The notes under the pieces are model-generated. The model saw nothing but the letters and a program-made list of their open reading frames with translations, was not told the origin of the DNA and did no database searches. From NCBI GenBank assembly GCA_020435995.1, contig JAGQYO010000001.1, positions 124,001-188,000 of the forward strand: 64,000 nt of DNA, given 5' to 3'. The stretch's first letter is position 1. Each line of letters opens with the position of its first letter. This document shows, in pieces, positions 25,939-28,769 of the stretch. The DNA is from Flavobacteriales bacterium. Lineage in GTDB: Bacteria; Bacteroidota; Bacteroidia; Flavobacteriales_G; Salibacteraceae. The translations under genes and the position numbers were made by a program.

Positions 25939-27192
25939 TTGTGCGCTCAAATAAATAGGTTGAAAAACTTCTATTCTATAACATTTACGCACCAATCAGT
26001 TGGTCTTGAGGGTATTGGGCAATACCATGTGTTGCCTGAAAACTTCGATGTGCAAACCATTAGCGCAATAAAAATGGAGTGTGACGAATTCCTTTTTCTC
26101 AGCACATGTAATAGAGTAGAATACTGGTTAACAGCTAAATCTGAGCTTTCGAGGAATGGTCTTTTGGCAATTTTTCAACACATATATAAAAATCGCAGCG
26201 CCGAATTTCACGAAAACGCCGTAAATCAGGCAATCATTTATTCACAAGTAAAAGCGGTAGAACATGTGTTTCGCGTGGCTAGTTCCTTAGATTCTTTGGT
26301 TATCGGAGAAAGGGAAATTCTAAGCCAAATTCGCGATGCGTTTTCATCAAGCAAGCAACTTGACCTTACGGGAGATTTTCTTAGAATATTAGTAAGGAAG
26401 ACTGTTGATACCGCCAAAAAAGTGTTTACGCAAACGGAAATTGCTGACAAGCCTGTTTCCGTGGTTAACTTGGCTTATAGAAAACTGATGGATTTAAATC
26501 CTAAGAAAGGATCTAGGATTTTAGTAGTGGGGTCGGGCAGAACCAATCAGGCGCTTACTAAAAAGATGAAAAAGAACGGTTTTTCAAATTTTACTGTTTT
26601 CAATAGGAGTATCGAAAACGCACAAAGCCTCGCCTCTGAATTAAATGGAAATGGAAATTCTTTAGAGCAGCTGTGCAATCACCAAAACGGATTTGATATT
26701 TTAGTGGCATGTACTGCGTCTCAGACGCCAATCATTACCCATCAAATTTTCAAAGACCTGTTAGGCGGGGAGAACGGCAGAGAAAAAATTGTAGTCGATT
26801 TGGCTATGCCTAGAGAGGTTGACGAAGAGATCATTGAATCCTTCAAGTCGCATTTTATAGGTGTAGAGTCATTGAAAGAAATCGCAGCTGAGAATTTGAA
26901 ATCACGTAAAAGTGAAATCCATAAATGTGAGGCAATTGTTGAAGCACAAATTGCCGATTTTATACATGTAAATAAGGTAAGACAGGTTGAATTGGCTATG
27001 CGTCAGGTGCCTCTTCAAATGCGAGAAATAAGGCAAAGAGCCTTTGAAACGGTTTTTGCTGCGGATGTACAAAAACTAGACTCAGAAGCGAAGGAAGTAC
27101 TGGAGAAAGTGGTTTCCTACATGGAAAAAAAATACATGAATGCTCCAATGCTTATGGCAAAAGAGATTCTTATAAAAGAAGACGTTAGATAA
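25939..27192 (+). CDS. hemA: Glutamyl-tRNA reductase
   Basis: HemA reduces glutamyl-tRNA(Glu) with NADPH to glutamate-1-semialdehyde, the first committed step of C5-pathway tetrapyrrole synthesis. The catalytic cysteine is in EFLFLSTCNRVEYW; further motifs are VFRVASSLDSLVIGEREILSQI, the NADPH-binding ILVVGSGRTNQALTKKMKK and DLAMPREVDEEI; the C-terminal dimerisation helices end with YMNAPMLMAKEIL. Length 417 is normal. The first codons are non-ATG (TTG 25939; another TTG at 25960 before KNFYSITFTH), so the exact start is uncertain. It heads hemA-hemC-hemD, with nine bases to hemC. Confidence 0.95.
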   Translation: MCAQINRLKNFYSITFTHQSVGLEGIGQYHVLPENFDVQTISAIKMECDEFLFLSTCNRVEYWLTAKSELSRNGLLAIFQHIYKNRSAEFHENAVNQAIIYSQVKAVEHVFRVASSLDSLVIGEREILSQIRDAFSSSKQLDLTGDFLRILVRKTVDTAKKVFTQTEIADKPVSVVNLAYRKLMDLNPKKGSRILVVGSGRTNQALTKKMKKNGFSNFTVFNRSIENAQSLASELNGNGNSLEQLCNHQNGFDILVACTASQTPIITHQIFKDLLGGENGREKIVVDLAMPREVDEEIIESFKSHFIGVESLKEIAAENLKSRKSEIHKCEAIVEAQIADFIHVNKVRQVELAMRQVPLQMREIRQRAFETVFAADVQKLDSEAKEVLEKVVSYMEKKYMNAPMLMAKEILIKEDVR

Positions 27193-27201
27193 AATAGCCA
27201 A

Positions 27202-28116
27202 ATGGCAAATCCTATCATCATTGGTTCGAGGGGAAGTGACCTGGCACTTTGGCAAGCCAATCACGTAAAATCACTTCTTGAAACTCAGGGAGTTTCTTCA
27301 GAAATAAAAATCATAAAAACCAGTGGTGACCTCATTCAAAACTTGAGCTTTGATAAAATGGAGGGTAAGGGCTTTTTCACCAAAGAAATTGAAGAAGCTT
27401 TACTTAACTCCGAAATTGATATCGCAGTTCATTCTCATAAAGACCTAGAAACCACTTCACCAGTAGGGTTGATGGTTTCAGCAGTATTAGATCGAGAAGA
27501 CCCTTGTGAACTCCTCATAATGAGAAAGGAGAGCTGGAGTGATCTTGAGAAATTTGAGCTGAAAAGGGATGCCATTATTGGAACTTCCTCCGCACGACGA
27601 CAAAACCAAATTAAGTTTTTTAGACCAGATTTACACATTAAGGATTTGCGCGGAAATGTGCCAACTAGAATTCAAAAACTGCGGGATGGAAATTACGATG
27701 CGATTTTGTTGGCCAAGGCTGGCGTGAAACGGCTAAAACTCGACCTCTCTGATTTAACGGTATTTGAATTAGATCCGCGAGAATTTATTCCAGCGCCTGC
27801 ACAGGGGGTTTTAGGGCTTCAAACAAGAGAAGGTATTTCCGAGATTAACCAAATCTTAGAAAAAATAAACCACCAAGAGGTACAAGAAATTACTGAAATT
27901 GAGCGAGGAATCCTTCGTTCGTGTGAAGGAGGTTGTCAGCTACCTTTAGGGGTATACTGCAACAAGGAGGGCAACGATTACCACCTCTGGGTTTCTTTTG
28001 CTTCAAGGGTAGATACAACGCCTAAAAGAGCTTATTTTGTAGAGACTTCCATAAAAGAGCTAAACCGAAAAGCGATGGCCTTTGTTCATGAAACAACTGA
28101 AAAAAAAAAGTCCTAA
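27202..28116 (+). CDS. hemC: Hydroxymethylbilane synthase (porphobilinogen deaminase)
   Basis: HemC joins four porphobilinogens into hydroxymethylbilane. The 304-residue sequence begins ANPIIIGSRGSDLALWQANH and contains IAVHSHKDLET, GTSSARRQNQI, LRGNVPTRIQKL, FIPAPAQGVLGLQTR and the dipyrromethane-cofactor cysteine in GGCQLPLGVYC. The C-terminus falls in an A10 tract: as written it ends EKKKS and TAA at 28114-28116, and the next gene's frame opens inside the same tract. See hemD for the consequence. Confidence 0.95.
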   Translation: MANPIIIGSRGSDLALWQANHVKSLLETQGVSSEIKIIKTSGDLIQNLSFDKMEGKGFFTKEIEEALLNSEIDIAVHSHKDLETTSPVGLMVSAVLDREDPCELLIMRKESWSDLEKFELKRDAIIGTSSARRQNQIKFFRPDLHIKDLRGNVPTRIQKLRDGNYDAILLAKAGVKRLKLDLSDLTVFELDPREFIPAPAQGVLGLQTREGISEINQILEKINHQEVQEITEIERGILRSCEGGCQLPLGVYCNKEGNDYHLWVSFASRVDTTPKRAYFVETSIKELNRKAMAFVHETTEKKKS

Positions 28117-28769
28117 TCACACGTGATTCTTCGGGTTTATTTGAATCTCAATTAACCCAATTAGGTCACACTGTTTACAAAACTGAATTTATACAGACAA
28201 TCGGGCTTGGGCCTGAAGTTCTTCCCACTTATTCTTGGCTGTTTTTTAATTCACCCCGGTGTTTTACTTTTTTTTTAGAAGCTTATGGCCAACATAGCTT
28301 TTTTAATAAAAAAATAGGATGTATAGGAGTAGGAACGGCTACTGTATTAAGGGAAAGTGGATTTAAGGTGCATTTTGAAGGAAAAGGAACCGACACCTTG
28401 AAAATTGCGCATGAGTTTTCAAATCTGGTATTAGATTATAATGAAACGGTCTTGTTTCCGCTGAGTGATAAAAGCCACAGAACGGTTAAGAAGGCCCTCG
28501 ACCCGAAGCAATACAGAGAAGTTGTGGTGTATAAAACCGAGCTTGTCGAAAGAGAGCTGGATCAAATATTTGATATTTTGGTATTTACCAGCCCTTCCAA
28601 TGTTAAAGGTTTTTTGAAAAGTGGCAACAGAACTCCACCGTCAGCACAAGTGATGAGTATTGGCAATTCTACGAAAGCCGAACTGCGAAAAAATGGAATT
28701 CAATCTACCATAAGTTGGGAACACACTGAACTGGCATTGGCAGATCGTGTGGCGGCTATTCTTTGCTAG
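28088..28769 (+). CDS. hemD: Uroporphyrinogen-III synthase, frame interrupted at an A10 tract
   Basis: HemD closes and inverts hydroxymethylbilane to uroporphyrinogen III. The frame covering 28101-28769 encodes about 220 residues starting VLITRDSSGLFESQL, then FFNSPRCFTFFLEAYG, CIGVGTATVLRESGFKVHF, TVLFPLSDKS, VVVYKTELVE, DILVFTSPSNVKGFL and a final ADRVAAILC; these are the usual HemD segments, so the gene is full length and conserved. Upstream in this frame is TGA at 28098-28100, and no ATG, GTG or TTG precedes the first strand. An ATG at 28088 would give MKQLKKK joined to VLITRD if the A10 tract (28100-28109) were A9. With A10 that ATG meets a stop at 28124. Slippage, a sequencing error or a rare start could explain it. 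The first GTG in frame, 28368, would cut off 40% of the protein. It ends overlapping the convergent DAHP synthase gene by 14 bases. Confidence 0.8.

Follow-up and report, generated by a model that had tools for sequence, protein, structure and literature searches.

At its 3' end, hemC carries a run of ten adenines that is very probably a programmed slippage site yielding a HemC-HemD fusion protein, as judged from its conservation in relatives; the run stands at the junction with a hemD gene that lacks its own start codon. We analysed a window of 64,000 nucleotides (positions 124,001 to 188,000 of contig JAGQYO010000001.1) from a Flavobacteriales genome of 3.76 Mb in 207 contigs (G000). The genes hemA, hemC and hemD follow one another there, all on the + strand. 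The upstream gene of the cluster (25939–27192), which we take to be hemA (glutamyl-tRNA reductase-like), was named by eye from its translation without a family scan, and its true start may be further in. The hemC gene (27202–28116, 304 aa, ending ...TTEKKKS in the zero frame) matched TIGR00212 with 302.7 bits against a cut-off of 164, and its C-terminal Pfam domain scored 22.5 bits, under its cut-off of 26. It ends with GAA AAA AAA AAG TCC TAA (stop codon at 28114–28116), and the A10 tract occupies positions 28100–28109 (+ strand), as checked in the letters of the window. The hemD frame (28101–28769, + strand) comprises 222 codons followed by TAG at 28767–28769, and TGA at 28098–28100 lies directly upstream of it. 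This frame reads AAA AAA AAA GTC CTA ATC, i.e. -1 relative to hemC, and its translation from 28101 begins with KKKVLITRD. The first ATG, GTG or TTG in it is the GTG at 28368–28370 (+ strand), which would yield a product of only 133 residues. The original prediction had described hemD as complete yet without any of these start codons, after an A10 tract at the end of hemC, and the coordinates, the frames and the HEM4 match given below confirmed this description. The -1 relation between the two frames is a point absent from it: with this offset, a single additional A, or a ribosome that shifts into the -1 frame, fuses hemC to hemD and makes a start codon unnecessary.

The hemD frame matched the Pfam domain HEM4 (E=2.9e-27). 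A profile search of HemD against the PDB gave 13 matches at E<=0.001, every one of them a uroporphyrinogen-III synthase (UROS), while phmmer with the HemD sequence alone found no PDB match. The AlphaFold2 model on a 61-row alignment reached a mean pLDDT of 96.2 and superseded a single-sequence model with a pLDDT of 42. Its first strand spans residues 3–6 and begins within the codons of the A-tract. By profile and predicted fold, the frame corresponds to a full uroporphyrinogen-III synthase. We also considered a hemD start downstream of the tract and ruled it out, because the first strand begins inside the tract and the next start codon is the GTG at 28368.

The HemC query covered the relatives of the window genome, its family and its order, a sample of the class, two other families, another order and a set of named genomes. 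Junctions were read at 219 loci, and 194 were distinct after dropping 23 repeats and 2 loci without hemD in the stretch. Short-frame loci from the class and order listings were included (20 and 40), with at least G226 and G129 left out. All counts refer to the loci read, are therefore at-least values, and come from a sample weighted toward relatives of the window genome. A single in-frame HemC-HemD gene was present at 46 of the 194 distinct loci. Split pairs made up the other 148, and 132 of those had a hemD start codon (83 ATG, 26 GTG and 23 TTG), counted if it was no more than 12 codons away from the first strand of HemD, while 16 had none. Comparing hemC-hemD junctions in close relatives was a check that the original prediction had named, and it gave a uniform picture: all 16 start-less junctions carried A9 (n=13) or A10 (n=3), and in each of them hemD was in frame -1 relative to hemC. 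A run of at least nine A's was found in only 1 of the 132 split pairs with a start (L072), a difference with Fisher p=1.6e-20 when kinship is ignored. The tract was read as NNA AAA AAA AAG/C in 12 of the start-less junctions and as NNN AAA AAA AAA G in the other 4. On these frames, a HemC-HemD fusion would be an outcome available to all 16, and a conserved recoding site in this haem gene pair is well supported.

A few junctions combined these features in other ways. In L072 (CALPOI020000256.1) the hemD start codon GTG is followed immediately by A9, and in L168 (G456) a GTG is followed by A8; the joint presence of a start codon and a slippery tract perhaps represents a transition state. Among the 44 in-frame fusions examined, 43 had linkers without a run of nine or more A's. 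The remaining one, L052 (CAJWDP010000015.1), has an A9 tract of matching codon phase (CTA AAA AAA AAG), where a slip either way would terminate HemC prematurely; the window shows the mirror image of this.

The 16 start-less junctions were distributed over nine genera and four families, single-contig genomes among them. The family of the window genome included seven start-less genomes (G000, G002, G006, G010, G011, G013 and G018) from six genera. In family f13, genus g68 was start-less with A9 in 5 out of 5 cases and genus g28 was fused in frame in 5 out of 5. Genus g165 of family f54 was start-less in 3 out of 3, and family f84 contributed one start-less locus (L082, on the same contig as G539). 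G011 and G323, each a single contig, show this frame relation together with an A9 tract. When the slip label is mapped on the HemC tree, at least 7 changes are required, 3 of them forced by well supported branches; the slip type may nevertheless have one ancient origin and many losses. Only 3 kinship-free pairs could be drawn on supported branches, and nearly always all three behaved as expected (sign test p=0.25). Finally, G025, a genome with 7% contamination, contained a second, distant HemC in a 533-aa open frame (C5:10985-11740, L043), possibly of foreign origin.

According to the reading that we prefer, the majority of transcripts or ribosomes would give free HemC (304 aa), and a fraction of transcripts would gain one A by RNA polymerase slippage (A11) and give the HemC-HemD fusion. 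Alternatively, ribosomes shifting to -1 within this tract would give the same fusion of 522 residues, a length counted by hand from the frames. The slipped product would contain ...TTEKKKVLITRD... and would correspond to the protein that is encoded by a single open frame in many relatives. The slippage itself and its rate are inferred here. The linker after the slip measured about 57–61 residues in the 14 of 16 junctions where it was measurable, against 54–63 residues in the 42 natural fusions measured, so that the linker a slip would make matches that of natural HemC-HemD fusions. Slippage as the route of expression, one of the readings offered in the original prediction, gained support from the conservation of the junction in 16 genomes. 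The reading in which the tract is really, or becomes, A9 and hemD starts at the ATG at 28088–28090 (+ strand), which joins the hemD frame only upon loss of one A, fared less well. A comparable nearby ATG in the joined frame was present in only 2 of the 16 start-less junctions (G000 and L082), with a TTG alone in one more; the loss-of-one-A route is therefore at most local.

Whether polymerase or ribosome takes the main step is less certain than the site, and transcriptional slippage seems the probable one. The competing account, in which -1 ribosomal frameshifting on A_AAA_AAG or A_AAA_AAA is the main step, polymerase slippage is absent and the same fusion protein results, is less likely. All 16 tracts have a good heptamer in the hemC frame (A_AAA_AAA in all 16, A_AAA_AAG/C in 12; both A_AAA_AAA and A_AAA_AAG in the window), and -1 shifts on these heptamers have been proven elsewhere, according to PMC4066793 and PMC3711429. 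There is also a modest excess of downstream RNA structure, with a mean folding z of -1.30 at start-less junctions versus -0.43 and -0.01 at the other junctions (Mann-Whitney p=0.0015, ignoring kinship). Against the ribosomal account, the run was at least nine A's long in all 16 junctions, though the heptamer needs only six or seven, and two codon phases were used (12 and 4 junctions). Neither a common hairpin at the start-less junctions nor an enrichment of SD-like sites was seen (2/16 start-less versus 21/115, repeats kept). Bacteroidetes mRNAs are described in PMC6847099 as naturally without SD sequences, and therefore the missing SD-like element argues weakly either way.

The coding sequence of the window genome also bears on this choice. 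In 283 kb of G000, coding runs of nine or more A's were observed 3 times versus 15.6 expected, and runs of seven or more 142 times versus 142.1 expected. The in-frame heptamers were not avoided there (A_AAA_AAG 38 versus 30.6 expected; A_AAA_AAA 70 versus 72.9), which speaks against a ribosomal shift. In G011, coding runs of nine or more A's numbered 3 versus 13.5 expected, with avoidance beginning at A7. In G323 they numbered 2 versus 4.2 expected, inside the shuffle range, with avoidance beginning at A6, and both slippery heptamers were avoided as well. Since avoidance starts at shorter runs in these two genomes, the argument holds in full only for G000. Taken with the tract lengths and phases, these counts favour transcriptional slippage over ribosomal frameshifting, not decisively.

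Two open reading frames with long A runs were seen in the sampled stretches. One of the three coding runs of nine or more A's in the 283 kb of G000 (L190–L209) is an A9 at nt 307 of a 1455-nt ORF, which we take, from its N-terminus, to resemble RpoN. In the stretches sampled from G011 (L210–L229), a 624-nt ORF (MKKSALLLIFMVCLSAWAQQ...) ends just past an A10 run at nt 613 and could be another slip-joined pair.

A change in the DNA itself is a much less probable basis for the arrangement. Replication slippage could alter the tract length so that cells alternate between a split and a fused gene, and A9–A10 tracts are indeed prone to indels, with L052 showing A9 and the genes in frame. At a contingency locus, however, both phases should be frequent, and of the 17 genes with nine or more A's and no hemD start of their own, only L052 was fused, the other 16 being unfused. 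Nine or more A's were found in only 1 of 44 fused linkers, and a core biosynthetic enzyme would be an unusual contingency gene. We consider phase variation very unlikely, and of the contingency that the original prediction had also raised there is left the single A9 fusion out of the 44 examined.

It is more improbable still that hemD is a dying remnant whose work is done by another HEM4 protein. Besides the hemC-linked hemD, each of the 27 genomes searched contained exactly one HEM4 gene above the cut-off (G012 and G274 had a further weak match below it), and this paralogue might supply the activity, a point against the slip-made fusion as well. In the window genome it is found at C131:2822-3430 (L044), between what we take from the translations to be a DUF4271-like membrane protein and an rnpA-like gene. 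However, the HEM4 paralogue was also found alongside separate or fused hemD genes, and in Bacteroides ihuae, the control genome, a HEM4 gene was present with no HemC match; the paralogue is therefore not a dedicated partner of HemC. Three close pairs gave dN/dS values of 0.159, 0.105 and 0.154 for hemD itself. Its open frame, measured from the first strand onwards, was 214–222 codons long in all 16 cases. Both results also argue against a remnant, and the dN/dS values indicate that HemD is under purifying selection.

A sequencing or assembly error, with a real tract of A9 and hemD starting at the ATG at 28088, is the least credible alternative: the assembly is in 207 contigs, homopolymers are error-prone and the ATG is in the right place, but the frame relation is common to sixteen genomes, including the single-contig G011 and G323 with their A9 tracts, the ATG is not conserved, and the A10 of the window is in the hemC phase seen in its family's A9 relatives (NNA AAA AAA AA[G/C], plus an A at the second codon position), so that a substitution, and not an indel, separates it from A9.

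Returning to the slip-made fusion, we tentatively suggest, with rather less than even confidence, that the A-tract in Bacteroidota acts as a tunable 'soft fusion' of successive haem enzymes that determines how much HemC is made free and how much as HemC-HemD. Over evolution, the slip-fusion would be one of three states, with hard fusion and split pair, that repeatedly replace one another. Each of them keeps HemD tied to HemC or translated beside it; HemD would in this way be passed the unstable hydroxymethylbilane before ring closure to the wrong isomer. Most known slippage genes belong to mobile elements. Here, if the interpretation is true, a core, non-mobile enzyme pair in many little-studied bacteria would need recoding to make its second member. 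With gene callers splitting hemC and annotating hemD as missing or truncated (133 aa in the window), such genomes would wrongly look haem-defective. Since related genera carry the hard fusion, the slip-fusion or the split pair, the group also offers a natural test of why genes fuse.

Our search of the open-access literature, supplements excluded, found no paper on slippage or frameshifting at hemC-hemD. The main text of PMC3711429 names no hem gene, and the 146 GeneTack clusters of that study may include hemC-hemD. Recoding as such is known from dnaX, chlD and IS elements; what is added is the hemC-hemD case, in which the three-way turnover of hard fusion, slip-fusion and split pair is unusual. 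Slippage on A9 or longer tracts is established for dnaX and IS elements (PMC1088944, PMC3711429), and PMC1088944 argues by comparison in a like manner, from a conserved overlap and a conserved A9. For poly-A cassettes of chlD in E. coli, PMC3711429 gives shifts of 10%, 40% and 63% with 7, 9 and 11 A's, respectively.

Like genes of programmed transcriptional realignment, to which dnaX belongs, the hemC-hemD junction has a homopolymer of nine or more A's and an organisation of frames that is kept among non-identical homologues, and long A runs are avoided in coding sequence of G000. The dnaX gene (Thermus thermophilus, and the two-ORF dnaX genes) is alike in having A9–A10 in a core, non-mobile gene with two products, and in two-ORF dnaX the longer product depends on the slip (PMC3711429). 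It belongs to another pathway, whereas the second frame at hemD is a whole second enzyme, with relatives that are fused or split with a start codon. The chlD gene of magnesium chelatase shares the tetrapyrrole pathway, the poly-A site, the joining of two annotated genes and the fused homologues elsewhere (PMC3711429, PMC9227772), but it encodes another enzyme at a later step in other taxa and is described as a case of translational frameshifting. IS-element transposases likewise have an A9 in the overlap of two frames and a conserved organisation (PMC1088944), but they are mobile elements without a biosynthetic enzyme pair. Finally, the in-frame HemC-HemD fusions of Bacteroidota have the same order, a similar linker length and homologous halves, and differ in that the frame is unbroken and a tract of nine or more A's is absent from 43 of 44.
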